A stretch of DNA of 39,749 bases, taken from positions 1 through 39,749 of the forward strand of contig SLCY01000051.1 of assembly GCA_007125585.1 (NCBI GenBank), in the 5' to 3' direction. This document shows positions 10,901 to 32,446 of the stretch, one piece after another (within the stretch, counting starts at the first letter, position 1; the number at the start of each line of letters is the position of its first letter). The DNA is from Bacteroidales bacterium (GTDB lineage Bacteria > Bacteroidota > Bacteroidia > Bacteroidales > UBA7960). The notes below the pieces were generated by a model that searched no databases, had not been told where the DNA came from, and saw nothing but the letters and a program-made list of their open reading frames with translations. Made by a program: the position numbers and the translations under genes.

Positions 10901-12219
10901 GACAATACGGCGTCGTTTGTCAGGCCGTTGGCGGTCGTATAGTAGCGTGTCGGACCCTCTGCGCTGGGGATGTAGTTCAACCCCGCACCCCGGGTCCCCA
11001 CCCACAGGTTGCCGCGGGAGTCTTCATAAATGGCACGTACGATCTGATGGTTCAATTGCCGCTTTTCCGCAGCCCCCCTGCTTATTTGAAAGAACGGTTT
11101 GGGGTTGAGCAACGTTCTGAAAACCCCTTCGCCGTCGGTACCGACCCAGAGAATATCATCGGGCGTCTCAAATAACGACCATATCTTCACTTTCTTGTCT
11201 GCCAGCGCAGGTATCATTTGCATCACCGGCTGCAGTGCAAACCCGTCACCGGCAACCATCCGGAAAACATTCCCGTCGTCGGTACCAAGCCAGTATTGCG
11301 TATGGTCGGCCGACCTGTTGAGCGCCGTGACACGGAAGCTCCAGTCGCCCAGATGCAACACCTCCGATGTCTTTGTATGGAGGTCGACGATCACCAACCC
11401 ACCCTCCAGCATACTGAAAAAAAGATAGTCCCTCTCCCCGGCAGAACAAAACCAGCTGGTCTTGACACGCATGGTGCCCAGCACAGGGTTTATATCCATC
11501 AGGTCATAGGAACGTGGGGGTCCTTCCGGATAAGGAACATGGAACAGGGAGTCCTCCGTTAGCAAGAACAACCCGTTATCGCGGACAAAAAAATCTTCTG
11601 TCCGCCTGACCGTTTCACCGGTAATCCCCTCCGGCGATACGGCTGCAAACTCTTTTTGCCCCTGATCGTAACGAAACAGGCCCATTCCACGGGCCAACGC
11701 CCACACATCGCCATCGGGACAAGCCACAGCTCTCAGGCTGTGTTCCCTGAGCGCCAGCTCAGGATATTCACCAAACCAGCTGGTGAAACTTCCCGTATGC
11801 CGGGAGTACTTATTGATCCCTTTCTCTGTTACTACCCACAAGTTGCCCCCTCCATCCTCAAACAATTGACGGATAATATTACTGCTGATGGCCTGATCGT
11901 CATAAAAGTCGGGATGAAACGTCTTTATCTGGTTGCCGTCAAAGCGATTCAGCCCATCCCAGGTACCAAACCACATAAACCCGTCAGAATCACGGTAAAT
12001 ACTGTTCACGGCACTGTTGGAAAGCCCATCCTCGTTGGTTATGACGGTCGACCGCCAGACCCGGTCCGCCGTTGCGTGCACCACCCCATGAAAAGGCAAC
12101 CACAATGCCCCAAAAAGCACGATCAGCTTTGCTGGCATGGAACGACGGAATATCCGGCAAAAAGTCCAAACATTTCCGTGTTTTTCACCATTTTTATGGT
12201 TCATACTGTAAAGATACAT
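7975..12219 (-). CDS. Hybrid two-component system (HTCS) regulator: sensor propellers, Y_Y_Y, HisKA/HATPase, REC, AraC-type HTH
   Basis: 1414 aa; repeated LWVGT/LWLGT propeller motifs, LAHEFGTPLTLIFASAASLL, HATPase (LLNLLSNAIKYTPPGG, VVDTGVGIPEDVLPYIFD), REC (ILVAEDDSELSNLLLNLLSEQYDV...VVSDIVMPEIDGLSLC), C-terminal AraC (ASHLAFSKPQLYRKIKALTGLTPHALIKNFRLKMA...DIIYMTGFNNRTYFYRSYKEVFGETP). Start may be an internal Met (about 12138). Confidence 0.92.
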   Translation of the reverse strand: MYLYSMNHKNGEKHGNVWTFCRIFRRSMPAKLIVLFGALWLPFHGVVHATADRVWRSTVITNEDGLSNSAVNSIYRDSDGFMWFGTWDGLNRFDGNQIKTFHPDFYDDQAISSNIIRQLFEDGGGNLWVVTEKGINKYSRHTGSFTSWFGEYPELALREHSLRAVACPDGDVWALARGMGLFRYDQGQKEFAAVSPEGITGETVRRTEDFFVRDNGLFLLTEDSLFHVPYPEGPPRSYDLMDINPVLGTMRVKTSWFCSAGERDYLFFSMLEGGLVIVDLHTKTSEVLHLGDWSFRVTALNRSADHTQYWLGTDDGNVFRMVAGDGFALQPVMQMIPALADKKVKIWSLFETPDDILWVGTDGEGVFRTLLNPKPFFQISRGAAEKRQLNHQIVRAIYEDSRGNLWVGTRGAGLNYIPSAEGPTRYYTTANGLTNDAVLSVAEDHHEILWIGHDGRGIDIFDRSSGRFFHFPRDLEGGEDLEFGSVYDICVDMFGTVWLATSGYGVMGLDIERTGEGYRLLDHTHIVGAGPDDMLRSNIVYSIVEEKPNVLWLGTRGGGIYRMNTLSGELENYSLADASEEGLNDDDVLSLYMGKDNIVWVGTSGGLNRVDIRHKPYSFSHYTTHDGLPNNTIHAILQDRQGKVWVSTNKGLSKLNTQTGQFVNFNHADGLQSNEYADGAAAIGQKTERFYFGGINGLDWFHPEEIIVSDRLPPLLFTGLRVYNTLIIPGDTTGILAKNINELDRIVLRHHQNFFDIEFTALNFVNPEKSLFEYKLEHFNTDWIRVGNQREASFTNVPDGKYRLMVRATNEDGLWSDEVKELAIIILPPFWRTWPAYVLYTIGLVLTLYAIYRYQSRRIQRKQQQAMERMQRQKEKELHQYKLQFFTNLAHEFGTPLTLIFASAASLLNPNKKPGESSSLVTTIYQNSRRMQRLVQEILEFRKIDTGREKIISKKTELVTTLNNIVQIFTHFVQQNELELSFEPDHDELWVFLDQGKLEKILLNLLSNAIKYTPPGGIIKLMLYQKEDKVILEVVDTGVGIPEDVLPYIFDSYYQQEPGVQKNMVSFKGIGIGLAYAKSLVELLGGAISVKSKTGEGSTFVITLPYNAAEPGNISQQDEAELLTQNNLSEMLAEALISTRGEQRKKANSRPDLWTTPKKYRILVAEDDSELSNLLLNLLSEQYDVTVVPDGEQALKQIQNTKVDVVVSDIVMPEIDGLSLCRTIKSDHLTSHIPVILLTARTEIENRIEGLEMGADSYIPKPFHPRHLFVRIERLLKAREQVAEYFKANFGTPSYDLQQTISPRDRELLEKCVAFIESNYQDETLDAGQLASHLAFSKPQLYRKIKALTGLTPHALIKNFRLKMARQMIAEDVHSISDIIYMTGFNNRTYFYRSYKEVFGETPGDLNKNSQKQF

Positions 12220-12295
12220 GAAATTATTTCATACAGGAATCCGGACTGTCGAACAATGAAAGCAGCAGCGATATCTTTTTGAGCCCTTTAAGCGG

Positions 12296-12321
12296 TTTTG
12301 ATAACAGGGTACATAGATTTG
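12296..12321 (+). promoter_or_regulatory. Candidate promoter/operator ahead of the PUL: TTTTGATAA...TAGATTTG
   Basis: TTTTGATAACAGGGTACATAGATTTG in the divergent HTCS/PUL intergenic region; TAGATTTG fits the Bacteroidota -7 consensus TAnnTTTG; near-matching element at 15576..15601. Confidence 0.35.
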
Positions 12322-12391
12322 CGACCATGGTTTACACCCGTGTACGTATTGTTGCTTACTTTCGACCATAAACCAAAATCCAGCACAACCC

Positions 12392-15300
12392 ATGAGAAAA
12401 ACCACCGCTTTGGTTCTTTTTTCCTTTTTCTGTCTGCTGCCTGCTTTTCCCGTTTCGTCGCAGCAGATCACCATTCCCCGTATCAACTCCATGCCCGACC
12501 TGCCTTCACCCTATGTGATGCGCGACTGGACGGACGTTGCCCATACTTACGATTCGCTTGTCTTTGACAAGGGACTGGAGGGTCAATACCTGCCCCTGCT
12601 CTTCTTCCGCGACCAGTCGGTAAATTATCCCGGCCATCCCAGTTTTGGCCTCCATACGGCGGTAGGCACAGTATACCCTGCATCAGGCGAGGCCATCAAT
12701 GTGATCCCCGCCGTGGTAGGGGCCACGCTGGCAGGTATCGACAAGTCGGACCAGTTCGATGAGAATTGGGCATCCATGGTGCGGGAATTTTTCAACCGGC
12801 GACCGGAGGAGAACATCTACCTGAACCATCCGGTTACCAGCTCCGGCCACGACTGGTGGTACGAGACCATGCCCAACATTTTTTACATGCAGGCACGGTA
12901 CCTGTATCCGGATATTGCTGTCTTTGACGAGCAGCTGCCCGTTATGGCTTCGCAGTGGGAGCGTGCCCTGCGTGCCATGGGGGCGTCCGATACGCCCTGG
13001 ACAGTCCCGTACATGAACTACAGGGCATGGAACATGTCGCAGATGGAACCTCTCGACAGCGGGGTGCGGCAACCCGAAGCAGCGGGGGCATTGGCCTGGA
13101 TCCTGTATAATGCCTATGTGGAGACTGGCGACATGATCTACCTGAGGGGTGCGGAATGGGCCATGGAGTTCCTCAACGGGTGGGAAGAGAACCCGTCGTA
13201 TGAGCTCCAGCTGCCCTACGGTGTCTACACGGCAGCCCGCATGAACGCCGAGCTGCATACCGGCTATGACATTGAAAAGATGGTCAACTGGTGTTTCGAC
13301 AGGGGCCCCTTACGGGGATGGGGTGCCATCAGCGGCAACTGGGGAGGCTACGACTGCCATGGACTCATCGGCGAAGCCAACGATCAGGGGAACGATTACG
13401 CTTTTATGATGAACGGCTACCAGCAGGCTGCAGCGCTCGTCCCCATGGTCCGCTATGACCACCGTTTCGCCCGGGCCATCGCCAAGTGGGTGTTGAACAT
13501 GGCCAGCGCGTCCAGGCTCTTTTACTCCCAGTACCTCCCCGACACCATGCAGGACAACGCCGAATGGTCACAAGCCTACGACCCCGGCTCGGTCATCGGT
13601 TACGAGGCGCTGCGCGAAGTGAAGCACGGACACAGCCCCTTTGCCACGGGCGATGCCATCGACGGGGGATGGGCCCATACCAACCTGATGCTGTACGGGT
13701 CCTCGCACGTGGGCTACATGGCGGGCATCATCAACACCACCAACATGGAAGGGATCCTGCAACTCGATCTGCTGGCAACCGACTTCTACCGCGACGATGC
13801 CTATCCCACCTTCCTGTACTTCAATCCGCACGACCAGCATCATCCCGTCGACCATGCCCTTCCCGAAGGGGTTTTCCGGGTGTACGACGTCATTGGCAAA
13901 GAGTGGGTGCACACCAATGCGTCGGGACACTTAAGCCTGACATTACCCCCCGGCGATGTGGTGATGCCGGTGATCGTCCCCCACGATGCCGATATTTCAC
14001 AAGAAGGGCGGAGGACCCTTGCCAACGGGGTGATTATCGACTATGACAACGGCCAGGCGACCGGTGCATTGCCTCCGCGCATCCAGTCGCTTGCCGTGCA
14101 AGACAGCATCATCGTTACCGGAAGCACCACCGACGTATACTGTACCGCAACAAGTCCCGACGGGACAGACATTGAATACCTGTGGTTTATCGACGGAGAT
14201 GCCGTGGAAGGGGACAGCCGGATCACTTTTTCCGCCCCTGACGAGGAAGGGGAGCACACCATCTCGTGCAAGGTGCTTAGCAGCAACGGGTTGTCTGACT
14301 CACTCGCCGTTGTGGTGCAAGTAAGCGAGAAGATCCCCGTGCCTCCCGCGATCGTTTCCCTGGAAGCGGAAAAACGCAAGCTGCGGCCGGGAGAGACAAC
14401 ACAGATCGTGTGTGTTGCAGAAGACCACTACGACGCCCCCCTTGGGTACGAATGGATTGCCGATAGCGGCACCATCTCCGGTGAAGGGGAAAGCGTTACC
14501 TTTATCGCACCGGCAGAACCCGGCAACCCGCAGGTACAGTGCCGGGTCACCAACCCCGACGGACTCTGCGACGAAGCAGTCCTCCGGATGATGGTGCGCG
14601 ACTACCCGGACGACATGGACAGGGATCCCGTGGCATACTATCCGCTCAGGGGAAACACGCGCGACTACGGTGGTAACGGGCTGGACGGGACAGCAGGCGG
14701 AGGACTGTCATATACCGTTGACATGGCCGGGAGGCCGGACCATGCCGCCTGGTTCAACGGCACATCTGCTTTCGTGCACATGCCGGACGATGAAAGGTTG
14801 AACTTCTCCGACGCCATCTCTGTTGCGGCTTTTATTCAGGTCGACGAGCACCTTCCCCGTGAGCAACACCCCATATCGCACGGTAGCTGGCAGAGCAGGT
14901 ACAAGGTGTCGGTAGGCAGCAACCACCTGCGGTTTACCCTGAACACCAGCGCCGGGATCACCGACCTCGACACCGAATCGCCACTGGAAGAAGGTCGCTG
15001 GTACCATATGGCCGTCGTATACGACGGGAACGACATGGAGCTGTGGATCGACGGAAAACTGGACGCTTTCACCGCCCATACCGGAGAGATCAACCAGTCG
15101 CCGCACCCACTGGCGTTCGGGCAAAACCTCCCGGGTAACAACGACTACAACTTCAGGGGGGCAATGGCGATGGTCCATATCTATGATCATGCCCTCACGC
15201 CGGAAATGATCAGCGACGAGCTGGCAGTCAGCCTGCCCGGACCGGATACGCAGTACCGCGCCGGAATGACAGTCTATCCAAACCCGGTTTCCGGCGGCTA

Positions 15301-15517
15301 CCTGGTTGCGCGTACTGACCTTCCTCTGGAAGGCCGCGCCACCTATACCCTGTTCAACGCATTCGGACAACCCATCGCATCGGGTGCTGCAACGGCCGGC
15401 GGAGGGATAAACACACTGGCCATCCAGCTGGGCCCCGGTATCACCAATGGGTTATACCTGCTACGGATCGTAACGAAAGAACAAACCTACGTCGAACCCA
15501 TCATCGTGTCGCGATGA
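12392..15517 (+). CDS. Large secreted protein: uncharacterised N-terminal (probably enzymatic) domain + two Ig-like domains + LamG + T9SS type A sorting domain
   Basis: Signal peptide MRKTTALVLFSFFCLLPAFPVSSQQ; N-terminal region homologous to 18127..19854 (GHDWWYETMPNIFYMQ; PMVRYDHRFARAIAKWVLNMASASRLFY; LLATDFYRDDAYPTFLYFNPH); LamG (DPVAYYPLRGNTRDYGGNGLDGTAGGG...WYHMAVVYDGNDMELWIDGKL); C-terminal YPNPVSGGYLVART...FNAFGQPIASG...GLYLLRIVTKEQTYVEPIIV. Confidence 0.85.
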   Translation: MRKTTALVLFSFFCLLPAFPVSSQQITIPRINSMPDLPSPYVMRDWTDVAHTYDSLVFDKGLEGQYLPLLFFRDQSVNYPGHPSFGLHTAVGTVYPASGEAINVIPAVVGATLAGIDKSDQFDENWASMVREFFNRRPEENIYLNHPVTSSGHDWWYETMPNIFYMQARYLYPDIAVFDEQLPVMASQWERALRAMGASDTPWTVPYMNYRAWNMSQMEPLDSGVRQPEAAGALAWILYNAYVETGDMIYLRGAEWAMEFLNGWEENPSYELQLPYGVYTAARMNAELHTGYDIEKMVNWCFDRGPLRGWGAISGNWGGYDCHGLIGEANDQGNDYAFMMNGYQQAAALVPMVRYDHRFARAIAKWVLNMASASRLFYSQYLPDTMQDNAEWSQAYDPGSVIGYEALREVKHGHSPFATGDAIDGGWAHTNLMLYGSSHVGYMAGIINTTNMEGILQLDLLATDFYRDDAYPTFLYFNPHDQHHPVDHALPEGVFRVYDVIGKEWVHTNASGHLSLTLPPGDVVMPVIVPHDADISQEGRRTLANGVIIDYDNGQATGALPPRIQSLAVQDSIIVTGSTTDVYCTATSPDGTDIEYLWFIDGDAVEGDSRITFSAPDEEGEHTISCKVLSSNGLSDSLAVVVQVSEKIPVPPAIVSLEAEKRKLRPGETTQIVCVAEDHYDAPLGYEWIADSGTISGEGESVTFIAPAEPGNPQVQCRVTNPDGLCDEAVLRMMVRDYPDDMDRDPVAYYPLRGNTRDYGGNGLDGTAGGGLSYTVDMAGRPDHAAWFNGTSAFVHMPDDERLNFSDAISVAAFIQVDEHLPREQHPISHGSWQSRYKVSVGSNHLRFTLNTSAGITDLDTESPLEEGRWYHMAVVYDGNDMELWIDGKLDAFTAHTGEINQSPHPLAFGQNLPGNNDYNFRGAMAMVHIYDHALTPEMISDELAVSLPGPDTQYRAGMTVYPNPVSGGYLVARTDLPLEGRATYTLFNAFGQPIASGAATAGGGINTLAIQLGPGITNGLYLLRIVTKEQTYVEPIIVSR

Positions 15518-15575
15518 GTGCCCCGGACACCCTTCATTGCCCCGGAAAAGAAAACCGTTATTCGTTTTTGGCCCA

Positions 15576-15601
15576 TTTTGATAATATACTGTACATCTTT
15601 G
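15576..15601 (+). promoter_or_regulatory. Candidate promoter/operator ahead of GH130: TTTTGATAA...CATCTTTG
   Basis: TTTTGATAATATACTGTACATCTTTG; shares the TTTTGATAA start, TTTG end and identical 21-nt offset with 12296..12321. Confidence 0.3.
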
Positions 15602-15615
15602 CAACCCCTGTACAT
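15589..15615 (+). repeat. Direct repeat CTGTACAT x2, 19-nt period, upstream of GH130
   Basis: CTGTACATctttgcaacccCTGTACAT at 15589..15596 and 15608..15615. Confidence 0.6.
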
Positions 15616-15676
15616 AACACCAATACAGCTTCCCCTTATATTTGATGCCGTACAAGTGAAAAAATAAAAACAGGCA

Positions 15677-16726
15677 ATGATGGATCTCGGAAAACGGTTT
15701 GACAACAACCCCATACTCAGGCCCCGCGACATTCGACCCAGCATGGAGGGGATGCAGGTAGAATGCCTGCTGAATCCAGGGGCTTTTCGCCATGATGGCA
15801 AGATCTGGCTGCTTTGCAGGGTTGCAGAACGGACCCGGCAGGACCCAGGCACTATCAAGGTACCGGTATTCAACGACGAGGGCAAAACGGAAATACGTAC
15901 CTTCTCCAAAGACGACCCCCTGCTGGATGCATCCGACCCCCGTGTGATCGCATACGATGGCAAGAATTACCTGACCACGCTGTCGCACCTTCGCCTGGTA
16001 AGCAGCGAAGACGGGCGGTCTTTCAGGGAAGACCCCGCCTATCCTCCCATCACGGGCGAAGGGATGCTGGAGTCGTTCGGGATCGAGGACTGCCGCGTTA
16101 CCGAAATGGAGGACGGCTTTCACCTGACCTACACCAAAGTATCGGAGATCGCCGTAGGGGTCGGGTATATCTTTACGCGCGACTGGAAAGCCTATGAGCG
16201 GAGGGGCATGATCTTTCCGCCGCACAACAAGGACTGCGCCATATTTGAGAAAAAGATCAACGGCAAATACTATGCGCTACACCGGCCAAGTAGCCCGGAA
16301 CTGGGCGGCAACTATATCTGGATCGCTGAGTCGCCCGACCTGCTGCACTGGGGCAACCACCAATGCGTGGCGATAACACGCCCTGGCATGTGGGACAGCG
16401 CCCGGGTGGGGGCCGGTGCCGCACCCATCGAAACATCCGAAGGATGGCTCGAGATATACCACGGAGCCACCGCAGAGAACCGCTACTGCCTGGGGGCCCT
16501 GCTGCTCGATAAAAACGACCCGTCGAAAGTGCTCGCCCGAAGCCACGATCCGATCATGGAGCCGGTCATGGAATACGAAAAAACCGGATTCTTCGGGAAC
16601 GTGATCTTCACCAACGGACATATCGTCAATGGCGATACCACTACAATTTACTATGGAGCCAGCGACGAAGTGATCTGCGGCGCAGAATTGTCGATCAGCG
16701 ATATCCTCAAAAGCCTTGATATATAA
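15677..16726 (+). CDS. GH130 family glycoside phosphorylase/hydrolase (DUF377-type), predicted cytosolic
   Basis: 349 aa, no signal peptide; NPILRPRDI, VECLLNPGAFRHDGKIWLLCRVAER, ASDPRVIAYDGKNYLTT, GIEDCRVTEMEDGFHLTYT, KDCAIFEKKINGKYYALHRP, WDSARVGAGAAPIETSEGWLEIYHGA. Confidence 0.88.
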   Translation: MMDLGKRFDNNPILRPRDIRPSMEGMQVECLLNPGAFRHDGKIWLLCRVAERTRQDPGTIKVPVFNDEGKTEIRTFSKDDPLLDASDPRVIAYDGKNYLTTLSHLRLVSSEDGRSFREDPAYPPITGEGMLESFGIEDCRVTEMEDGFHLTYTKVSEIAVGVGYIFTRDWKAYERRGMIFPPHNKDCAIFEKKINGKYYALHRPSSPELGGNYIWIAESPDLLHWGNHQCVAITRPGMWDSARVGAGAAPIETSEGWLEIYHGATAENRYCLGALLLDKNDPSKVLARSHDPIMEPVMEYEKTGFFGNVIFTNGHIVNGDTTTIYYGASDEVICGAELSISDILKSLDI

Positions 16727-16806
16727 CCGGCAGCAAAAAATGTTGCAGACACCACGAACAATAAAGAAGCAACAAAAGACACAACGTAAGAAATAAACTG
16801 ATAGGA

Positions 16807-18102
16807 ATGAAAAACAGACTGTTAGGCGAATACCGTTTTTTTATGACCATGCCGCGATTGATGCGATTGGTGCTGATCACCAACATGATATATGCCTTTG
16901 TGTTGCCGGTGATCGATATTTTTGTTGGGGCGTATATCATGCGCAGCGCCGACAGTCCGGCTATGGTTGCCGTTTATCAGCTGTGCGTGTATACCGGCAT
17001 CCCGTTCACCTTTGCCATCAACGGCTATCTGCTAAAAAAGTTCAACGTTTCCCGCCTCTACAGCTTCGGCATGCTGCTGAGCGGTGTTTCCATGCTCTTT
17101 ATGATGTCGCTGCGACACATGAGCTTTACCGGCGTCGCCGTTGCCGGTTTTATAATGGGTGCCTCGTTTGGCTTTTTCTGGGCCAACCGCGACTTCCTTG
17201 CACTGGATACCACCAACGACAAAAACCGCAACTACTATTACGGCGTTGAAACTTTTTTCTATACCATCACCTTCATCCTGGTGCCCGCAGCTATAGGCTG
17301 GTTCCTTGTCAGCAGCACCCGTCACGGCTGGTTCGATGGCAACATCACCAGCGCCTACCGGATTGTTGCCTATGCAGTGATCGTACTTACCATCCTGGCC
17401 AGCATAGTGATCCACCAGGACAAGTTCAGAAACCCCAAGCAAAAGAAATTCATCCACTGGAGGTATGACTGGCTCTGGAACAAGTTCCTGGTTCTGGCGG
17501 CTCTGAAAGGTTCGGTGCAGGGCTACCTGGTCACGGCACCCGCCATCCTGATCATGCGGCTGGTGGGCGACGAAGGGTCGCTGGGACTGATCCAGAGTGT
17601 CAGCGGTATCATCACCGCCTTTATGCTCTACCTGCTGGGAAGGACGGCAAAGCCACACCACCGCCTCTACATTTTCGCCGCCGGCATCATCGTCTTTTTC
17701 ATCGGTGCGTTGACCAACCAGCTACTGTTCTCTGCCCTGGGAGTCATCGTGTTCGTGCTGTGCAAGGTGCTCTTCATGCCCCTGCACGACATCGCTTACT
17801 TCCCCATCCAGATGCGTATCATTGACGTACTCTCGGTAAAAGAGAACCGCAGCGAGTTCGCCTATATATTCAACCATGAATTCGGACTGTACCTGGGCCG
17901 TTTCCTCGGTCTCGGCCTGTTTATCTACCTGGCCTTTTTTGTGTCGGAAGAGGTAGCCTTGCGGTACTCCCTGCTGGTGGTGGCAACCATACAAATAATG
18001 TCGATACCGCTGGCAAAAAATATTATCCGGCATGTGAACAGGACAATTGACCAGGTAAAAAAGAACAATCCCGATCTCGATGCACCAAAACTGAACGTTT
18101 AA
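16807..18102 (+). CDS. MFS transporter
   Basis: 431 aa multi-helix hydrophobic protein: VTNMIYAFVLPVIDIFVGAYI-type N-terminus, GFIMGASFGFFWANRDFLAL, about 12 hydrophobic segments; sits between GH130 and a secreted protein. Confidence 0.8.
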   Translation: MKNRLLGEYRFFMTMPRLMRLVLITNMIYAFVLPVIDIFVGAYIMRSADSPAMVAVYQLCVYTGIPFTFAINGYLLKKFNVSRLYSFGMLLSGVSMLFMMSLRHMSFTGVAVAGFIMGASFGFFWANRDFLALDTTNDKNRNYYYGVETFFYTITFILVPAAIGWFLVSSTRHGWFDGNITSAYRIVAYAVIVLTILASIVIHQDKFRNPKQKKFIHWRYDWLWNKFLVLAALKGSVQGYLVTAPAILIMRLVGDEGSLGLIQSVSGIITAFMLYLLGRTAKPHHRLYIFAAGIIVFFIGALTNQLLFSALGVIVFVLCKVLFMPLHDIAYFPIQMRIIDVLSVKENRSEFAYIFNHEFGLYLGRFLGLGLFIYLAFFVSEEVALRYSLLVVATIQIMSIPLAKNIIRHVNRTIDQVKKNNPDLDAPKLNV

Positions 18103-18126
18103 CAGAAAAAAAACACTCCCTTTGGT

Positions 18127-19854
18127 ATGAAGCACAGCATAATAATACGTTTCCTTTTTCCTGTACTAACCATATGGTTGGTTTCGTGCCAGCAGCATCA
18201 CGAAGTGCACCAGGTGCACATCGACCGTGTGCTTGACATGCCGGATACACCCGAACCATATAAGATGCTTAACTGGGGGGAGCTGGCCCGCCATTTTGAC
18301 CAGTACGTATTCAACCATGATGCCAGGGGCGACCATATGCCGTTCATCTGGCTGGATGACAGCGGCCGCAACTTCGATCAGCAGACCTTTGGTCTCTTTA
18401 CCGCCATCGGTGATGTGCGGCAGGGGCCCGGCACGCATGGCGGGGAGTTCCATGAGGCGATCAACACCCTGGGGGCCCTGATGAGCGCCGGGCTCGTCGG
18501 CATCGACAAACGCGATCAGGACGGGTTCAACTACGTGTTGATGGCCCAGAACTATTTCAACAGCGACAACGGATGGAACATCGTGATGAACAACACGTCA
18601 GAACGTGTCGGACACCTTGGTGGCGGTTACGCGCGCGACTGGTGGTACGACATCTTCCCCAACATGTTGTTTTATGCCGTCAACGACCTGTTTCCCGGCG
18701 TGGAACGCGCCGACAGCATCATGCGCATTGTGGCCGATCAGTTCATGCAAGCAGATAGTGTCCTGAACGGCAACTACCACTATTCGTTCTTTGACTACTC
18801 GGAGATGGAGGGGAGGCGCAGCCATATACCCTTCCAGGAAGATGCCGCGGCCGGTCACGCCTGGGTGCTCCTTTCGGCCTATAACCATTTCGGCGACGAA
18901 AGATACCTGGAAGGTGCCCATTCGGCCGTTCAGGCGCTGTTAGCCCAGGATGAAAGCCGTTTCTACGAGGTGCTCATGCCCTTTGGCGCTTATGTGGCCA
19001 GCCACCTGAACGCCCTGCACGGGGGGGAATATGACTTTCACAGGATACTCGACTGGACCTTCGACGGAACCCACGCGGAAGACGGCCGATATGGCTGGGG
19101 CATCATCAATGAGCGGTGGGGCAGTTACGACGTGCACGGCCTCCAGGGAAGCTGGGCACATGACGGAGGATACGCCTTCCTGATGAACACCTTCGATATG
19201 GCCTGGCCGTTGGTCCCCATGGTACGCTATGCACCCCGGTACGCTGAGACTATCGGAAAATGGATGCTCAACGCGGCAAATGCAGCCCGCCTGTTCTATC
19301 CCAACGAGATACCCGATGACCACCAATACCTGCCTCACAAGAAAAACCTGACGCGCAATGTTATCGGGTACGAGGGACTGAAAAAGACTGACCTGTTCGG
19401 TGAAGAACGGTTCGAGAATGTTTCACCCGTTGCTCTCGGCGACGGTCCGCTTTGGGTGGAAGGAAATCCCGATGTGTCGATGTTCAGCCTTTACGGATCG
19501 GCACACGCTGGCATATTCGGAGCCATCATCGAGAAGACGAACGTAGAAAAGATCCTGCGCCTCAATTGCCTGGCCACCGACTTCTTCCGCGGTGACGCAT
19601 ATCCCACATACCTCCTGTACAACCCTTACGGGGAAGAGCAACAGGTAGACTATGTATACCAAGGCGAGCCCGTGGTTCTCTATGACATCATTTCCGGCAG
19701 GATACTGGCTGAAGAGGTGTCAGGCACCACCACCATAACGGTCCCCGGAACAGGGGCGCGCTTGATTACGGAAATACCACACGGGATCGCAATACAGAGA
19801 AAGGATGGCATGGTGATCGCGGGTGATGTGGTGGTACACTATGGACGGCAATGA
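18127..19854 (+). CDS. Lipoprotein paralog of the N-terminal domain of 12392..15517; uncharacterised, probable carbohydrate-active enzyme
   Basis: 575 aa; MKHSIIIRFLFPVLTIWLVSCQQHH lipobox; co-linear homology to 12392 product (MPDTPEPYKMLNW, ARDWWYDIFPNMLFYA, FGAYVASHLNA, WGSYDVHGLQG, PMVRYAPRYAETIGKWMLNAANAARLFY, CLATDFFRGDAYPTYLLYNPY). Confidence 0.8.
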   Translation: MKHSIIIRFLFPVLTIWLVSCQQHHEVHQVHIDRVLDMPDTPEPYKMLNWGELARHFDQYVFNHDARGDHMPFIWLDDSGRNFDQQTFGLFTAIGDVRQGPGTHGGEFHEAINTLGALMSAGLVGIDKRDQDGFNYVLMAQNYFNSDNGWNIVMNNTSERVGHLGGGYARDWWYDIFPNMLFYAVNDLFPGVERADSIMRIVADQFMQADSVLNGNYHYSFFDYSEMEGRRSHIPFQEDAAAGHAWVLLSAYNHFGDERYLEGAHSAVQALLAQDESRFYEVLMPFGAYVASHLNALHGGEYDFHRILDWTFDGTHAEDGRYGWGIINERWGSYDVHGLQGSWAHDGGYAFLMNTFDMAWPLVPMVRYAPRYAETIGKWMLNAANAARLFYPNEIPDDHQYLPHKKNLTRNVIGYEGLKKTDLFGEERFENVSPVALGDGPLWVEGNPDVSMFSLYGSAHAGIFGAIIEKTNVEKILRLNCLATDFFRGDAYPTYLLYNPYGEEQQVDYVYQGEPVVLYDIISGRILAEEVSGTTTITVPGTGARLITEIPHGIAIQRKDGMVIAGDVVVHYGRQ

Positions 19855-19934
19855 GGGGGGGATCCGGACAAGCACACGAAATAAAGACAATACAAACATA
19901 CAGACCGGCGTTATCCGGTAAAAAACATCAGCAT

Positions 19935-22900
19935 ATGAAAACATTACTGCGATTTATTCTTTCATGGTGGTTTTGTTTTATTTGGTTTCCGCTGTTGCTC
20001 CAGGGTCAGCCCGGCCTCGTTGAAGTAGGGGGCAGGGTAACTGACTCCGAAGGGCTTGGCTTACCCGGAGTGACCGTCCTTGTGGAAGGGACATCCGTGG
20101 GGACCACCACCGACATCGAGGGGGAGTACTCCCTTGCGATCCCGGAAGAAGCTGAAGACCCGGTACTTGTCTTCAGCTATATCGGCTTTATTACCCAGCG
20201 GCACCAGGTGGGCGACCGGACACGCATCGATATCCGTATGGAAGAAGATGTACGGTTGCTCGATGAGTTCGTGGTCGTGGGATACGGTATTCAACGAAAG
20301 GTGGACCTTACGGGCGCCGTTTCGAGCATCAGTGCGGAAGAGATGCGGATGCTTCCTGTCGGGGGCGTTGACCAAGCCTTGCAGGGGCGTGCCTCAGGGG
20401 TGAATATCACCCATAACACGGGGATGCCCGGCGAGGGGGTGAACGTACGCATCCGTGGCGTAGGATCCATCAACAGCAGCAACGACCCGCTTTACATCGT
20501 CGACGGCGTCCCCACGACCGACGCGCTGAGCACCCTCTCGCCCAACGACATCGAATCGGTCAGTATCCTTAAGGATGCTGCCTCGGCGGCTATTTACGGT
20601 GCCAGGGCCAACAACGGTGTGATCCTGATCACCACACGCAGTGGCGAGAAAGGGAGACCACGGATAGAGTTCTCGTCGCAAACGGGGTTCCAGTCCCACG
20701 GAAGGCTTACCCCCATGACCAACCGTGACCAGTACATTGAGATGTACAACGAGGCGGCGGAGAACGACAACGCCTTTATCGACAACCCGCGGCTGCAACG
20801 CCAACTGATCAACAACGAGCATGCAGCCACGCTGCCTGATGTGGACCACATGGATGCCATCTTCCGCAGAGGCCTTATAATGAACCAAAGCCTGACGGTC
20901 AGCGGCGGCACCGACGACCTCACCTATATGGTATCGGGTAACCGCTTCGAGCAGGAAGGGATCGTCATAGGCAGCCACTACGACCGCTACTCGGGACGCC
21001 TGAGCCTGTCCAGCAGGGTGAACGATAACATACGTATCGGTGTCAACGCCAACATGTCGAGAAGCGACAACGACATCATCGGAAGCAGCGGCGACGGCTT
21101 CGGAGGCAACGGCGGAAGCGTGGTGCGCTACGCGTTCTTCCGCACACCGCCTATCCCGATATATGACGACGATGGCAACTACGTGGACCTGCCCTCCCAT
21201 CCTGCATTTTTTGGCGACGGATACAGTCCCGTCGGACTGGCCGACAAGATGAACAACAACATACAGCAGAACCGGCTCTTCGGTGATGTCAACACGCATA
21301 TACAGATCCTGCCCACCCTGCACTTCTCCGGAACCTACGGCCTCGACCGCACCGACTTCTTTAACCGCCGGTTCAACGAAAACTGGGGGTCGAACAACCG
21401 CATCAACAACCCAAACTCACTGCAGATAAACAATGGTTTTTACCAGGCAATGACCGCGAGCAACGTCCTGTCTTACAACAACTCCTTCGGCGACGTCCAT
21501 GAGCTGTCGGCCATCGTTGGTACGGAAGCGATCCGCAACAACGGCTACAGCGACAACGCCACACAACGCGAATTCCCCGACCAGGACGACAACCTCATTT
21601 TTCTTGGCAACGGCCTGGGAAGCGTGGTGGTGTCGGAACACCGGTGGGCCAACACATTGCTTTCGTTCTTCGGACGTGCCAATTATACGTACGACAACAA
21701 ATACCTGCTGTCAGCCACATTGCGCCGCGACGGTTCATCCCGCTTCAGTCCCGACAACCGCTGGGGCACCTTCTATAGCATCTCGGGCGCATGGCGGATC
21801 GACAGGGAAGGGTTCATGCAGGACAATGACTTTGTTGACATGCTGAAAATCCGGGCCGGATACGGTGCCATCGGCAACCAGGAGGTAGGCAACTATGCCT
21901 ATTCCGACCAGATATCACCCAACTTCAACTACCCGTTCGGGGGCATCATGCATACAGGGTATGCGATCTCCGTATTAGGGAATGCCGGTCTGCAATGGGA
22001 AACCAGCACCCAGCTTGACATCGGCCTCGACCTGTCGGTGTTGGATGGCCGGATCTTCATGGCCATGGACTATTTCCGTAAGGTCACCGCCAACATGCTG
22101 GTAAAAGAGCCGATCCCCCCGTCAGCAGGCTATGCAAGTCCCGCGTGGGTAAACAACGGCGAGATCCTGAATGAAGGGGTGGAGATGGAGCTCACTTACC
22201 GCGACCAGCTGGGCAGTGTGGGTGTACAGTTTTCGGGCAACATAGCATACCTGCATAACGAAGTGCTGAGTCTCGCAGCCCCCATCGTTGGTGGACGTAT
22301 CGACCATGGGGTCTATGCAACGCGTACAGAAGTAGGCTTTCCTGTGGGGTCATTTTTCCTTTATGATATGGCCGGCATCTTTCAGAACAACATGGAGATC
22401 ATAACCAGCGCCTACCAGGGTGTGAACATTCGTCCCGGCGACGTCCGCTATGTCGACCAGAACGGCGACGGCATGATCGACGAACAGGACAGGGTTCACG
22501 TGGGCAGCGCCATCCCCAGCGTAACAACAGGGTTTGAAATGGCGGCCGCATACAGGAACTTCGACCTGTCGCTTTTCTGGCACGGTGCCTTTGGTCACCA
22601 GATCTATTACCAGGTAGCGACCGACATTGAAGGGTTCTACCGCCCGTTCAACCTCACCAAGCGTTACTACAACGAACGGTGGACCGGTGAGGGGACGAGC
22701 GACACCCAGCCCAGGGCATCGTGGAGCGCAAAAGCGAACAACACCAGGCCTTCTACGCGGTTTCTCGAAGACGCCTCGTTCCTGAGGCTTAAAAATGTCC
22801 AGCTGGGATACACCTTGCCCGCCGGACTGACAGAGCGGCTGAGGATGGAAAGCGCACGGGTGTACTTCATCGCGCACAACCTGATCACCCTCACGAACTA

Positions 22901-23030
22901 CCCGGGACTGGATCCCGAGATGACCACCAGCGACAACTCGAAAGAGGAAGGTGATGCAGCGGCAGGGATCGACTGGGGGACATACCCCGTGGCGCGATCA
23001 TTCAACCTGGGGATACGGATAAACTTCTGA
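19935..23030 (+). CDS. SusC/RagA family TonB-linked outer membrane protein
   Basis: ORF 19851..23030; likely start at 19935 (MKTLLRFILSWWFCFIWFPLLLQGQ). VTDSEGLGLPGVTVLVEGTSVGTTTDIEGEYSL carboxypeptidase-like domain, DEFVVVGYGIQRKVDLTGAVSSI TonB box/plug, SAAIYGARANNGVILITTRSG, C-terminal beta-barrel end SFNLGIRINF. Confidence 0.95.
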   Translation: MKTLLRFILSWWFCFIWFPLLLQGQPGLVEVGGRVTDSEGLGLPGVTVLVEGTSVGTTTDIEGEYSLAIPEEAEDPVLVFSYIGFITQRHQVGDRTRIDIRMEEDVRLLDEFVVVGYGIQRKVDLTGAVSSISAEEMRMLPVGGVDQALQGRASGVNITHNTGMPGEGVNVRIRGVGSINSSNDPLYIVDGVPTTDALSTLSPNDIESVSILKDAASAAIYGARANNGVILITTRSGEKGRPRIEFSSQTGFQSHGRLTPMTNRDQYIEMYNEAAENDNAFIDNPRLQRQLINNEHAATLPDVDHMDAIFRRGLIMNQSLTVSGGTDDLTYMVSGNRFEQEGIVIGSHYDRYSGRLSLSSRVNDNIRIGVNANMSRSDNDIIGSSGDGFGGNGGSVVRYAFFRTPPIPIYDDDGNYVDLPSHPAFFGDGYSPVGLADKMNNNIQQNRLFGDVNTHIQILPTLHFSGTYGLDRTDFFNRRFNENWGSNNRINNPNSLQINNGFYQAMTASNVLSYNNSFGDVHELSAIVGTEAIRNNGYSDNATQREFPDQDDNLIFLGNGLGSVVVSEHRWANTLLSFFGRANYTYDNKYLLSATLRRDGSSRFSPDNRWGTFYSISGAWRIDREGFMQDNDFVDMLKIRAGYGAIGNQEVGNYAYSDQISPNFNYPFGGIMHTGYAISVLGNAGLQWETSTQLDIGLDLSVLDGRIFMAMDYFRKVTANMLVKEPIPPSAGYASPAWVNNGEILNEGVEMELTYRDQLGSVGVQFSGNIAYLHNEVLSLAAPIVGGRIDHGVYATRTEVGFPVGSFFLYDMAGIFQNNMEIITSAYQGVNIRPGDVRYVDQNGDGMIDEQDRVHVGSAIPSVTTGFEMAAAYRNFDLSLFWHGAFGHQIYYQVATDIEGFYRPFNLTKRYYNERWTGEGTSDTQPRASWSAKANNTRPSTRFLEDASFLRLKNVQLGYTLPAGLTERLRMESARVYFIAHNLITLTNYPGLDPEMTTSDNSKEEGDAAAGIDWGTYPVARSFNLGIRINF

Positions 23031-23085
23031 CAGGGTAATGCAGCCACCCTTCAAAAAGAAGTATAACGCGCAAAAAATACAGACC

Positions 23086-24564
23086 ATGAAAAAAACAATA
23101 GCCATACTAAGCATCATAATTTTTTCAGCTTGCAGCGATTTCCTCGATGAAAGCATGCAGGGGATATACACCAGCGAGACGTTCTTCAAAACCGATGACC
23201 ATGCCATCCTCGCCCTTAACGCCGCCTACCAGCCTATAGCGTTCACCAACATCCGGAACGCATTGTGGGTCTTCGGCGACGTGGCCTCCGACGATGCTAT
23301 CAAGGGCGGCATTCCTGGCGACCAGAGCGAGATCGAGTTCATCGAGCAGTTCACCTACACCCGCGACAACGGGTTCCTCGAACATATCTGGCAACGGTAT
23401 TACGAAGGGATATCCCGTTCCAACGACGCGATCCACCGCCTGGGCAACAGGGTCAACGACGACGTTCGGGAACGGGTACAGGCCGAAGCGAAATTTTTAC
23501 GGGCGTACTATTATTTTCACCTGGTGAACATCTTTGGAGAAATACCGCTTAAAGCGGAGCCTGCTTATGCTGCGGCAGACCTGCACGTGCCCGTATCTCC
23601 GGCAACAGATATTTACGAACAGATCGTTCGGGACCTCCGGGATGCGGCCGACGACCTTCCTGTCTCGGTCGGCGGACAGCACGGAAGGGCAACAAAAGGG
23701 GCGGCTCTCGGGTTGATGGCGAAAGCGTACCTCTTCCTTGAAGACTATGACGCAACGCTCGACGCCATTGCAGAACTGGAAGAGCTGGGTCTTTACGGCC
23801 TGATGCCTGTTTACAGCCACAACTTTATGGAGGCAACCCAGAACAACCAGGAGTCGGTCTTTGAGATACAGCACCTGAGCGACCAGGACCCGTTCCAGGG
23901 GAACGTGCTGAACCAGTGGTTCGCCCCCCAACCCGAGAACGGATACTTCTTCAATGTGCCTGTCGACGATTTTGTTGATGCCTTCGAAACAAGCCACGAA
24001 GGGGTGGTGGACCCGCGCCTGGATTACACCATTGGCAGGGAGGGACAGACATGGATCAACGGCGAGCCGTTCGACCCCGCATGGTCGCCCACCGGCTATA
24101 TCAACAAGAAGCACCTCCAGCCTCTCGACGAGATCCCGGCAGGCTCCAAAGGCGACGGGAGCCTGAACTACGTTTTCATGCGTTATGCCGAGGTGCTGCT
24201 GATGAAAGCCGAAGCACTCAACGAGCTGGGCCGCAGCGCGGAAGCACTCGAGCCTCTGAACGAAGTAAGACGCCGGGCGCGGGAAAGTTTCCTTCACGAT
24301 GAAACGCTCGAGGGTTTCGGAGAAGTCCCCGATGGATTGCTTGCCGACATCACCACAACGAACCAGGCAGACCTGCGCGGGATCATCCGGAACGAACGCC
24401 GCACAGAACTCGGCTTTGAGTTCCACCGGTTCTACGACCTGATGCGTTATGGCAAGGCATACGCCGAAGCACGACTCGGCGACACCAACTTCGTCTACGA
24501 CCAACACCGATATTTTCCCATTCCACAGAGTGAGGTAGATATAAACAATCAAATCAACTTTTAA
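23086..24564 (+). CDS. SusD/RagB family nutrient-binding outer membrane lipoprotein
   Basis: ORF 23038..24564; likely start at 23086 (MKKTIAILSIIIFSACSDFLDES). ALWVFGDVASDDA, RSNDAIHRLGN, EAKFLRAYYYFHLVNIFGEIPL, YAEVLLMKAEALNELG, IRNERRTELGFEFHRFYDLMRYG, YFPIPQSEVDINNQINF. Confidence 0.95.
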   Translation: MKKTIAILSIIIFSACSDFLDESMQGIYTSETFFKTDDHAILALNAAYQPIAFTNIRNALWVFGDVASDDAIKGGIPGDQSEIEFIEQFTYTRDNGFLEHIWQRYYEGISRSNDAIHRLGNRVNDDVRERVQAEAKFLRAYYYFHLVNIFGEIPLKAEPAYAAADLHVPVSPATDIYEQIVRDLRDAADDLPVSVGGQHGRATKGAALGLMAKAYLFLEDYDATLDAIAELEELGLYGLMPVYSHNFMEATQNNQESVFEIQHLSDQDPFQGNVLNQWFAPQPENGYFFNVPVDDFVDAFETSHEGVVDPRLDYTIGREGQTWINGEPFDPAWSPTGYINKKHLQPLDEIPAGSKGDGSLNYVFMRYAEVLLMKAEALNELGRSAEALEPLNEVRRRARESFLHDETLEGFGEVPDGLLADITTTNQADLRGIIRNERRTELGFEFHRFYDLMRYGKAYAEARLGDTNFVYDQHRYFPIPQSEVDINNQINF

Positions 24565-24592
24565 TTTTTTTCTAACCAAAACCCTTAAAACT

Positions 24593-25660
24593 ATGAAAAA
24601 GCACAAATTCTTTCAATTTCTGATGATCGCGCTGATCGCGGGTGGTTTAATGACTTTCCCGGCATGCAGCGACGATGATGATGATGACGACATTGTTGTT
24701 GACAAGACCGAACTGGCTACCTTGATCCAGGAAGCGGAAGGCCTTATCGAGAACACCACCGAGGGGACGGCCGAAGGACAGTACCAGTATGGTTCCCAGG
24801 CTGCCCTGCAGGAGGTGATCGATCTTGCCAAAGCTGTCTACGATGACGAGAACGCTACACAGACAGAGGTCGACAATGTGGTGATCGCCCTGGATCAGGC
24901 CATCCAGGACTATGAAGCAGCCAAGGTGGTACCCATTGCCCCGGAGGCACTTGTCGGCCACTGGACCTTTAACGAGGGCGAGGGCACCCAGGTGATGGAC
25001 TTCTCCGGCAACAACTTCAACGGAGAGTTTAAGACCGGACACAGCCACTGGGGAGAAGGCTCCCCGCAGTGGGCCACCGACCGCTACGGAAATGAAAACC
25101 AGGCGCTCTACTTCAACGAAGGAGCCAATGTGGAGATCCCGTTCAGCACACAACTCAACCCGCAAGAGATCAGCATCTCCCTGTGGATGAAGCCTGACGA
25201 TCTCGCCGAGCCCTGGGCAAACAACTACATGGTGTCGCTGAACCGCTGGAACGGATACAAGCTGCAGCTGCAGGATTCGCCGAAGGTGTTCTTCACCATT
25301 AAGGCACTGCATGAGGGAGATCCGGTATGGCACGACCGCGACAACGTATCACCCGAAATCAATCTCGGCGAATGGTACCATGTGGCTGTTACCTATAAAG
25401 ACGGTGAGATGGGGTTCTATCTCGACGGCACGCAGGTACACCTCTGGGACAATACCCCGGGCACAGCCATTGCGCTCGATGAGCCCATCAACCTGACCAT
25501 CGGCCAGGACCTGCCCACCGATGTGTATACGACCGACGAAGGAGACTTCTTTGTAAACTGGGGCGGATACTTCCAGGGTGTCCTCGACGATATCCGCATT
25601 TACAATACTGCACTTAGCGCTTCGCAGGTTGAAAGCATCTATGACCTGGAGAAGCCCTAA
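24593..25660 (+). CDS. LamG-domain outer membrane lipoprotein with N-terminal FIVAR-like repeat (putative surface glycan-binding protein)
   Basis: 355 aa; lipobox and poly-Asp FPACSDDDDDDD; LIQEAEGLIENTTEGTAEGQYQYGSQAALQEVIDLAKAVYDDENATQTEVDNVVIALDQAIQDYEAA (FIVAR-like); LVGHWTFNEGEGTQVMDFSGNNFNGEF...WYHVAVTYKDGEMGFYLDG...GVLDDIRIYNTALSASQV (LamG). Confidence 0.85.
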   Translation: MKKHKFFQFLMIALIAGGLMTFPACSDDDDDDDIVVDKTELATLIQEAEGLIENTTEGTAEGQYQYGSQAALQEVIDLAKAVYDDENATQTEVDNVVIALDQAIQDYEAAKVVPIAPEALVGHWTFNEGEGTQVMDFSGNNFNGEFKTGHSHWGEGSPQWATDRYGNENQALYFNEGANVEIPFSTQLNPQEISISLWMKPDDLAEPWANNYMVSLNRWNGYKLQLQDSPKVFFTIKALHEGDPVWHDRDNVSPEINLGEWYHVAVTYKDGEMGFYLDGTQVHLWDNTPGTAIALDEPINLTIGQDLPTDVYTTDEGDFFVNWGGYFQGVLDDIRIYNTALSASQVESIYDLEKP

Positions 25661-25767: not shown

Positions 25768-26634
25768 TCACCTGACGTTTCCCAGGTATACGTGCGACAG
25801 CTCTTCACCGGCCATTGATTTCATCCTGTTCATCAACGCGATGGGGGTTGGCGGGGCGGCATGCTTCCATGAGGGGAAATAGCGGTTGATGTGCAACACG
25901 ACATCCTTCCCGAGCTCCCTGCGGATCCAGCGGACCATTTGAACAAAAAGGTCCGTATCGTCATTCAGCTCGGGTATTACCAAAAATGCGATTTCCAGGT
26001 GGAGGCCCGCGGAAACGATTGCATGCATTGTGTCAAGAACCGGCTGCAGCTTTCCACCGGTATATTGCCGGTAAAAAGCGTCACTGAACGATTTCAGGTC
26101 AACATTGAAAGCATGGCTTACCCGCAGCAACTCATCAAGAGGCTCCTTATTGATAAACCCGTTGGTCACCACCACATTTTTCATCCCTGCCCCGTACACC
26201 AACCCTGCGGTATCGACCATGAACTCATACCACACAGTGGGCTCGTTATATGTATATGCGAGCCCGATACTGTCGGACCTCAACATTCTGTCAACGATCT
26301 CTTGCGGTTCGATGCGGCGGGTACCGGAAGCCCGCCCGGTTCCGCACTGCGATATGTCTGCATTCTGGCACCATGCACACCGGAAGTTGCACCCGTAGCT
26401 TCCCAGCGACAATACCTGGCTTTCGGGGAAATACCGGTACAACGGCTTTTTCCGGATGGGGTCCATGTGGAGCGCCGACACCACGCCATACGTATCGGCG
26501 ATCAAACGGCCCCCGTCATTGCGCCGCACCCGGCAGCGCCCGGTCTGGCCGGGGCGGAGCATACAGCCATGCGGACAGAGGCCGCACTGAACTGTTTGTT
26601 CTGCCCTCACCGTATAGTAACTGGCCTCTTTCAT
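25768..26634 (-). CDS. amrS: AmmeMemoRadiSam system radical SAM enzyme
   Basis: ORF 25768..26751, likely start at internal Met 26634 (MKEASYYTVRAEQTVQCGLCPHGCMLRPGQTGRCRVRRN). Radical SAM CNFRCAWCQN; LAYTYNEPTVWYEF; VTNGFINKEPLDELL. Confidence 0.88.
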   Translation of the reverse strand: MKEASYYTVRAEQTVQCGLCPHGCMLRPGQTGRCRVRRNDGGRLIADTYGVVSALHMDPIRKKPLYRYFPESQVLSLGSYGCNFRCAWCQNADISQCGTGRASGTRRIEPQEIVDRMLRSDSIGLAYTYNEPTVWYEFMVDTAGLVYGAGMKNVVVTNGFINKEPLDELLRVSHAFNVDLKSFSDAFYRQYTGGKLQPVLDTMHAIVSAGLHLEIAFLVIPELNDDTDLFVQMVRWIRRELGKDVVLHINRYFPSWKHAAPPTPIALMNRMKSMAGEELSHVYLGNVR

Positions 26635-26755
26635 CTGTTTGTATTTTGAAAAATAGGTTTGAAAGTTTAAGGGTTGTTGCCTGAGGGACAGGAACACTGA
26701 AGCAACATCCTGAAAGTGTATATCCTGCGGCAGATGGCCGGCAGCAAGCATTAGG

Positions 26756-28045
26756 CTATCTCAATATCAACTCCTTGCTCCACCTTATCAGCCATTCATC
26801 ATGGCCCTGCAAGGCAGCAGCCTGCAAGCCCAGCGGAAGTCCGCCGCCATTCATTCCGGCAGGGATCGACAGGGTCGGCACCCCCAGAAAGGTCCATGGC
26901 AGGTTCATCAGCGGACTGCCTGTCGAATGCAATCCCTTGGGCGCTGTATCAACCGAAGAAGGGCTGAGCCAGAGAGCTATCCCCTCTTTGTGGGTAACCT
27001 GTTCCAAACGATTTTTTATTTCAGCCTGCAAGTTGCGCGCATCCGCAATGGCTTTCCCGGAAACATTCCTGCCTTCCGTGATCAGCTCTTTTGCGTGCCG
27101 GCCATAGCGTTCTGTGAACGCACGGTGCCAGTTATGGTGAACTTCTGCAAAGTCGCGCGAAACGATGTTCCGGTGTGCAGCATTGATGGACAGGATGTCA
27201 CCAAAAACGTCCTTTTCAACAACCCTGAACCCCGCCCTTTCCAGCTCCTCTGCCTTTCGGAAAAACCAGTGCAATATTTCCGGTTCAGCCTGCTTCATGT
27301 ATTCTCCGGCAGGGATGCCAATGACCGTTTGTCTGCTTTTGTCAACCGGTTGTTTCCAGTCGTCGACCAACAATGTGCACACCAGTTCAATCCCTTCGAT
27401 ATCTTGTGTAAAGAACCCGACATGGTCGACGGTGGGCGACAGAGGGATCACCCCGCTGGTGGGGATCCTGCCCAGGCTTGGCTTGAATCCATATACTCCG
27501 CAATAGGATGCCGGCCTGGAGATGGAGCCTATTGTCTGTGTTCCCAGGGCCAGGGGGGTCAGTCCTGCGGCAACGGCCGCTGCAGGGCCGCTGCTCGAGC
27601 CACCGGGGGTATGCTCAATATTGTGCGGATTGCGGACAGGTCCCGGCTGGAAGTAGGCAAATTCCGTTGTAACGGCTTTCCCAAGGATCAGCGCACCGGC
27701 ATTTTTCAGTGCAGAAACGGAGGCAGCCTCCTTCCCTTTAAACACTGCAGGCGGCAACCGGGATCCCGCACGGGTCTCAAAGCCATCAACAACAAAAATA
27801 TCTTTCACCCCCACTGGGATGCCAAAGAGGGGCGGTCTCAAGCCCGGATCAGGATACTTCCTGACCAGCACAGCAAGCTCCGACAACAAACGTTTGCGCC
27901 GGTTTGGTTCCGGCAGCAAGGATTGTATTTGTCCGTCAACCGCTTCAATCCTGTCACATAGATCATTGATAAAACCTTCCGGCGGCAACGCCCCATCCCT
28001 GAGCCTCTGTACAGTTTCTGAAAGCGATAAATGGAGGGCAAACAT
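26756..28045 (-). CDS. Amidase signature family protein
   Basis: 429 aa; GIPVGVKDIFVVDGFETRAGSRL, HTPGGSSSGPAAAVAAGLTPLALGTQTIGSISRPASYCGVYGFKPSLGRIPTSGVIPLSPTVDHVGFF. Confidence 0.88.
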   Translation of the reverse strand: MFALHLSLSETVQRLRDGALPPEGFINDLCDRIEAVDGQIQSLLPEPNRRKRLLSELAVLVRKYPDPGLRPPLFGIPVGVKDIFVVDGFETRAGSRLPPAVFKGKEAASVSALKNAGALILGKAVTTEFAYFQPGPVRNPHNIEHTPGGSSSGPAAAVAAGLTPLALGTQTIGSISRPASYCGVYGFKPSLGRIPTSGVIPLSPTVDHVGFFTQDIEGIELVCTLLVDDWKQPVDKSRQTVIGIPAGEYMKQAEPEILHWFFRKAEELERAGFRVVEKDVFGDILSINAAHRNIVSRDFAEVHHNWHRAFTERYGRHAKELITEGRNVSGKAIADARNLQAEIKNRLEQVTHKEGIALWLSPSSVDTAPKGLHSTGSPLMNLPWTFLGVPTLSIPAGMNGGGLPLGLQAAALQGHDEWLIRWSKELILR

Positions 28046-28167
28046 ATTTATGGATGTTGTATTTTTAATCCTTTACATAAACACCATCCCTCGAACCATC
28101 CACCCTTAAGGCAATCATCCTGGTATTCCTGACCTTACGGCGTTTCCCTGTTTTTCTTGTCAACGGC

Positions 28168-28199
28168 AAAAAGCCGATGATCCTTCTTCTGGGCTTTTT
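28168..28199 (-). terminator. Intrinsic terminator downstream of the CoA-transferase gene
   Basis: AAAAAGCC gatgatccttcttctg GGCTTTTT perfect 8-bp inverted repeat, in the 187-bp gap after the minus-strand stop at 28233. Confidence 0.6.
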
Positions 28200-28232
28200 C
28201 TTTCCGACACCAGGGCAGAATCAGCACATCTC

Positions 28233-29420: not shown

Positions 29421-29444
29421 GATTTAACGTTTTTCTGTGGTTTC

Positions 29445-29511: not shown

Positions 29512-29565
29512 CCGGTCATTCCGTCCGAAGGGAGGAGTTGCCGGGCGTGAGGCTTTAAGATGGCT

Positions 29566-31914: not shown

Positions 31915-31917
31915 GAC

Positions 31918-32376: not shown

Positions 32377-32446
32377 CTGTTTATATTTTTACAGCCGTTT
32401 GTTTTTCAGCACCTTGTGTGTTGACTCCCGTTTTTTGACGCCCTGT

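Follow-up and report, generated by a model that had tools for sequence, protein, structure and literature searches.

A conserved polysaccharide utilisation locus of Bacteroidota with two paralogous proteins of an unnamed, putative glycoside hydrolase family and beta-1,2-mannan as a candidate substrate

Introduction

Which glycan is served by the polysaccharide utilisation locus (PUL) at positions 7975-25660 of Bacteroidales contig SLCY01000051.1 (GenBank assembly GCA_007125585.1), and which of its products cut that glycan? The entire contig of 39,749 bases (hereafter the window) was analysed; it belongs to a 2.57 Mb assembly of the phylum Bacteroidota, and among the matches listed in the genome_contigs collection the stretches closest to it are for the most part labelled Bacteroidales. 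The complete PUL consists of seven co-oriented genes, for protein A, a phosphorylase of glycoside hydrolase (GH) family 130, a major facilitator superfamily (MFS) transporter, protein B, SusC, SusD and a FIVAR/LamG lipoprotein, together with a divergent hybrid two-component system (HTCS) regulator (7975-12219, minus strand). A first-pass annotation, made from the letters of this DNA alone, had described the same eight genes, the seven co-oriented ones at the same positions, and had singled out A and B as the only depolymerase candidates besides GH130; the present analysis confirms the former and supports the latter.

On the best reading, A and B belong to a glycoside hydrolase family that has yet to be described, is unnamed in Pfam, NCBIfam and the PDB, and would act by hydrolysis. 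At a probability of roughly one half, such enzymes serve here in a PUL for beta-1,2-linked mannan or oligomannosides along the route proposed below, for which we infer the hydrolysis, the linkage, the endo- and exo-acting roles, the compartments and the import.

Two paralogues without a named family

Protein A (12392-15517, plus strand; 1041 residues) and protein B (18127-19854, plus strand; a 575-residue lipoprotein with the lipobox LVSC) share an orphan domain, predicted to form an alpha/alpha-toroid followed by a beta-sandwich. Over its whole length, B aligns with residues 1-573 of A (35% identity, E = 3e-104); this is not a chance resemblance and bears out their earlier designation as paralogues. 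The greater length of A is explained by what follows the signal peptide and the shared domain (about residues 25-555), namely two Ig-like stretches, a LamG_3 domain (789-941) and a sorting tail of the type IX secretion system (T9SS), all of which were absent from the earlier listing. In a tree of their relatives, A and B fall into two separate clades (support 1.0 and 0.99), and the duplication is therefore old; the source genome holds these two members of the family and no other.

The statement that A and B have no family assignment holds in the Pfam, NCBIfam and PDB sequence searches. The shared region gave no match above cut-off in Pfam or NCBIfam, no PDB sequence matched either protein at E <= 10, and a PDB profile search with an alignment of 78 relatives returned chance matches only. 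In RefSeq, the relatives are labelled "hypothetical protein", and no account of the family or of a beta-1,2-mannanase was found in the open-access literature. The motif blocks quoted in the first-pass annotation recur in both proteins, with the exception that DWWYxxxPNxxY is exact only in A, while B reads DWWYDIFPNMLFY. Across the 78 relatives, E110, D171, W172, W173, Y174, E281, E416, D439, T484 and D485 (B numbering) are invariant, and no cysteine is invariant or nearly so.

This conservation bears on whether A and B are enzymes at all. The LamG and Ig-like domains of A would suit a pair of non-catalytic glycan-binding proteins, but such a role is hardly credible, given that many carboxylates and aromatics are invariant across both clades and that the PUL without A and B would hold no secreted degradative enzyme.

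Predicted fold and its nearest relatives

AlphaFold predicted a helical toroid, followed towards the C-terminus by a beta-sandwich, both for the A domain (predicted local distance difference test score, pLDDT, 92; predicted template modelling score, pTM, 0.91) and for B (pLDDT 96, pTM 0.94), so that the helical barrel anticipated earlier is now predicted with high confidence. A toroid fold combined with the lack of a family match in Pfam, NCBIfam and the PDB is the outcome that the first-pass annotation had named as favouring novelty.

Foldseek placed the GH127/GH146 beta-L-arabinofuranosidases (HypBA1, BT3674, Bll3HypBA1) as the best PDB folds for both proteins (E 2.5e-8 for B and 6.7e-7 for A), ahead of GH9, GH78 and epimerase toroids. 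These closest solved folds likewise consist of an (alpha/alpha) barrel and then a beta-sandwich. Despite the significant Foldseek E-values, they superpose on the models with a template modelling (TM) score of at most 0.39 by query length, a root-mean-square deviation near 15 and 9-13% identity, and sequence similarity to GH127/GH146 was detected neither by Pfam and NCBIfam nor by PDB sequence searches. Furthermore, GH127/GH146 enzymes possess a cysteine nucleophile and zinc site (a Cys/Glu set), whereas the absence of an invariant cysteine from all 78 sequences argues against a GH127 mechanism for A and B; they are also arabinofuranosidases, while the gene neighbourhood of A and B points to beta-mannosides. 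Membership of GH127 was rejected on the missing conserved cysteines and the low TM scores. The broader proposal, that A and B lie inside or form a remote branch of an existing CAZy family (near GH127/GH146, or a recent one) which Pfam and NCBIfam do not cover, takes its support from the Foldseek ranking and is quite improbable in view of the poor superposition, the absence of the cysteine, the failure of even a profile to find a PDB sequence and the lack of any published description. A search of a viral fold library yielded nothing useful.

Helical-barrel glycan hydrolases of Bacteroidota also include GH144-type proteins (PF10091) and further glucanases of the (alpha/alpha)6 type, with which A and B share the predicted barrel but from which they differ in having no PF10091 match.

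The first-pass annotation had left open whether the pair were glycosidases or lyases. The first alternative is favoured by the best folds being glycosidases, whereas a lyase is unlikely beside a GH130 partner predicted to act on neutral beta-mannosides. Toroid and beta-sandwich architectures occur in lyases too, and a weak C-terminal match to the D-glucuronyl C5-epimerase family PF06662 appears in 27 of the 78 relatives at E <= 0.01 (best E 3.9e-5); in B itself it reaches 16.9 bits, under the cut-off of 23.3. This trace fits a common helical-barrel shape rather than family membership. That A and B act on uronic-acid glycans, as polysaccharide lyases or as epimerases, is very unlikely, as no lyase occurs among the PDB fold matches of either protein at E <= 0.001, the GH130 partner probably handles neutral mannosides and no uronate-catabolism genes were recognised in the loci.

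Distribution and conservation of the locus

The first-pass annotation had suggested that this locus may define a new family; the family is in fact widespread in Bacteroidota and not particular to the locus. At least 547 stretches in genome_contigs encode a relative, and the 80 that were retrieved include Bacteroides xylanisolvens XB1A, Dysgonomonas, Proteiniphilum, Flavobacterium cellulosilyticum, Labilibaculum and Chryseolinea; the B. xylanisolvens homologue lies at L102:9980-11716. From the phylum, 395 genomes were drawn evenly. The family is present in 19 of them (the source genome counted), and all 19 encode a GH130 protein, compared with 130 of the 376 others (Fisher p = 4.2e-9); since the genomes share descent and are not independent, p-values overstate the strength of this association, which still spans several families of the phylum. 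In 17 of the 19, GH130 lies within a neighbourhood of about 20 kb, more often than even a generous background rate can explain.

Among the 44 B loci long enough to be judged, an MFS transporter and the SusC/SusD pair each occur in 43, GH130 in 42, HTCS in 40 and LamG in 36, and either both A and B or a second B-like copy is kept in 30. The order GH130-MFS-B-SusC-SusD-LamG is conserved, with A placed before or after it. Genomes carrying such a PUL come from gut, rumen, soil, sediment and marine habitats. Two plasmid records, both from Persicobacteraceae (L155 and L156), were the only ones found in a plasmid scan; in both Persicobacter psychrovividus and Aureibacter tunicatorum the same PUL is borne by a large plasmid, and the P. 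psychrovividus copy has an alpha-glucosidase gene as well. A scan of IMG/VR with B gave no match.

The GH130 partner and the linkage it indicates

The GH130 gene of the window (15677-16726, plus strand; PF04041, E 3.7e-47) encodes a phosphorylase of the Uhgb_MS/Lin0857 type. Its closest solved relative is Uhgb_MS, matched at 565 bits along 347 residues; of the Uhgb_MS entries (9eqq/9erg/9erh set), one was crystallised with 1,2-beta-mannobiose. The window GH130 also scores 334 bits against Lin0857 (5b0p), a beta-1,2-mannobiose phosphorylase (PMC8950772). According to Cuskin et al. (PMC4599007), K199 determines the beta-1,2 specificity of BT3780; with the numbering on the 5a7v sequence anchored by E141/D142, the window GH130 aligns a lysine (in an NKD motif) to this column, a likeness to beta-1,2 enzymes that extends to its close kin Uhgb_MS and Lin0857. 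In an alignment read by eye, the hydrolase glutamates of BT3780 (E227/E268) have no counterpart, and basic residues stand in that region. As these glutamates and a signal peptide are both missing, as expected for a cytoplasmic phosphorylase, the protein is predicted to be one; its probable activity on neutral beta-mannosides, including phosphorolysis of beta-1,2-mannobiose, is suggested by its relatives.

Other loci agree. A second class, in which A is accompanied by an ATP-binding cassette (ABC) sugar importer and GH2 mannosidase-like genes, contains GH130s whose closest counterparts are Uhgb_MS/Lin0857 and the Teth514-type beta-1,2 enzymes, and these GH130s keep the lysine in alignment; in locus L053, an A/B relative stands with a BT3780-type GH130, a ROK kinase and an MFS transporter. 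Three kinds of GH130 (Uhgb_MS/Lin0857, Teth514-like and BT3780-like) thus accompany the family, all with the lysine that PMC4599007 names as the specificity determinant, and because three separate contexts agree, beta-1,2-mannosides are indicated. The substrate is consequently less open than the first-pass annotation had held, and the odds that beta-1,2-mannan is the polymer are put at about even.

A PUL for N-glycans or plant beta-mannan was also considered and rejected, since the GH130 has its nearest relatives among beta-1,2 enzymes and is distant both from Uhgb_MP and from beta-1,4 enzymes; such a PUL is further disfavoured in that GH13 is the only other glycosidase recurring beside GH130. 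The Bacteroides yeast-mannan PULs, with the GH130 beta-1,2-mannosidases BT3780/BACOVA_03624, are likewise Sus-type and remove beta-1,2-mannosides; they differ from the annotated A/B loci, where no GH92 or GH76 was recognised, and the passages of PMC4599007 consulted do not mention A or B.

A proposed route for beta-1,2-mannan

GH130 enzymes are exo-acting beta-propellers, and the one encoded here is predicted to be cytoplasmic, so it cannot be the secreted depolymerase; A and B are predicted helical toroids, and their export signals suggest a division of labour. T9SS export of A is plausible because the source genome holds 46 T9SS sorting tails. An acidic surface-export signal follows the lipid cysteine in 37 of the 44 LamG lipoproteins with a lipobox and in 6 of the 67 B proteins; the B of this PUL lacks it. 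By this matching of signal patterns, A would lie outside the cell and B mostly in the periplasm.

In the proposed route, the T9SS-secreted, LamG-bearing A would cut the polymer extracellularly; SusC/SusD and the LamG lipoprotein would bind and import the fragments; and B, probably facing the periplasm, would trim these to beta-1,2-mannobiose. The disaccharide would be carried into the cytoplasm by the MFS protein and phosphorolysed by GH130 to mannose 1-phosphate and mannose, which a phosphomannomutase and ManA encoded elsewhere could route into glycolysis; genes of the phosphoglucomutase/phosphomannomutase (PGM/PMM) family and manA are present in the source genome. A more specific proposal, that the family includes a secreted endo-acting beta-1,2-mannanase performing the hitherto missing first step (on, for example, Candida mannan or Leishmania mannogen) with a poorly superposing toroid/beta-sandwich, is put forward tentatively.

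The HTCS regulator carries propeller repeats, Y_Y_Y, HisKA, HATPase, receiver and AraC helix-turn-helix domains (Pfam). The MFS transporter (16807-18102, plus strand; PF07690, E 1e-15) is the putative disaccharide importer. SusC, a TonB-dependent transporter (19851-23030, plus strand; TIGR04056, E 2.7e-278) whose true start is probably a methionine downstream of the listed ATG, adjoins the glycan-binding lipoprotein SusD (23038-24564, plus strand; PF07980, E 1.3e-35). The last gene (24593-25660, plus strand) encodes a surface lipoprotein with the export signal CSDDDDD and FIVAR and LamG_3 domains (PF07554, E 2.7e-6; PF13385, E 1.2e-22), presumably a glycan-binding protein. The adjacent SusC/SusD pair (19851-24564) and the co-location of a regulator with a carbohydrate-active enzyme, GH130, place the locus among Sus-type PULs and bear out the standard architecture described earlier.

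Accessory genes and the case for another glycan

Several observations weigh against the assignment to beta-1,2-mannan by an undescribed hydrolase family. The TM scores are low to all solved glycosidases, which leaves no template for assigning active-site residues. GH130s 59-62% identical to that of the window occur without A or B in many Bacteroidota, where they stand alone, so this type of GH130 has further roles, and Uhgb_MS has been described as a synthase of mannosides whose products are mixed (PMC8950772); for both reasons, the GH130 need not report the linkage of the polymer exactly. Lastly, 11 related loci contain a secreted GH13 (alpha-glucosidase-like, of the oligo-1,6-glucosidase/sucrose-isomerase kind), in most of them after the LamG gene, on account of which the natural glycan may contain alpha-glucose in some species.

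Solitary GH130s with roughly 60% identity to that of the window were also seen at a syntenic, non-PUL chromosomal spot in one genus (L160, L162, L166, L170-L172), where they possibly serve as biosynthetic mannoside synthases; the idea that an Uhgb_MS-type GH130 always implies A/B was rejected, as many genomes carry such a gene alone outside any PUL. In addition, a further orphan, a secreted protein about 820 residues long, is encoded in seven B loci (L086:16694-19153, L122:17697-20180, L138:6215-8683 and four more), with no match in Pfam or NCBIfam.

These accessory genes are the basis for supposing that A and B are undescribed-family glycosidases for a mixed beta-mannose/alpha-glucose polymer, in which they would cut some linkage that is not beta-1,2-mannosyl and leave the last beta-mannoside to GH130. 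The GH13 genes, mostly adjoining LamG, and the orphan of about 820 residues speak for such a polymer, as do the GH2 mannosidase-like and GH94-like genes found nearby in the ABC-type loci. It is nevertheless rather unlikely, because GH13 is absent from the window and from most related loci, which leaves A, B and GH130 as the core, and no conserved debranching or uronic-acid genes occur in the loci.

Genes around the locus

The PUL is flanked by genes for AmmeMemoRadiSam system protein B (7065-7907, minus strand) and a radical SAM protein (25768-26751, minus strand), and looks as if inserted into a housekeeping module. Beyond the latter, a minus-strand cluster (26756-38194) encodes an amidase, a CoA-transferase III, xanthine-dehydrogenase-type subunits, a cyclase-family hydrolase, AllG, an FdrA-like protein and AllH; it resembles a module for purine/ureide catabolism of the oxamate carbamoyltransferase (allFGH) kind, together with a molybdenum hydroxylase. 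Apart from the PUL, a lipoprotein-like PF10091 "glycoamylase" gene (1181-2647, minus strand; E 6.9e-79), of the family to which GH144 beta-1,2-glucanases belong, adjoins a Y_Y_Y/LuxR-type regulator (2794-5595, minus strand).

Implications

The family of A and B is large, unnamed in the libraries searched and probably enzymatic, and the small PUL in which it sits is strongly conserved in Bacteroidota. If beta-1,2-mannan is indeed what they cut, the family would provide the secreted depolymerase missing from the known GH130 exo-enzymes and a tool for a glycan of fungi and parasites whose analysis is difficult; furthermore, beta-1,2-mannans would then be common nutrients in nature.

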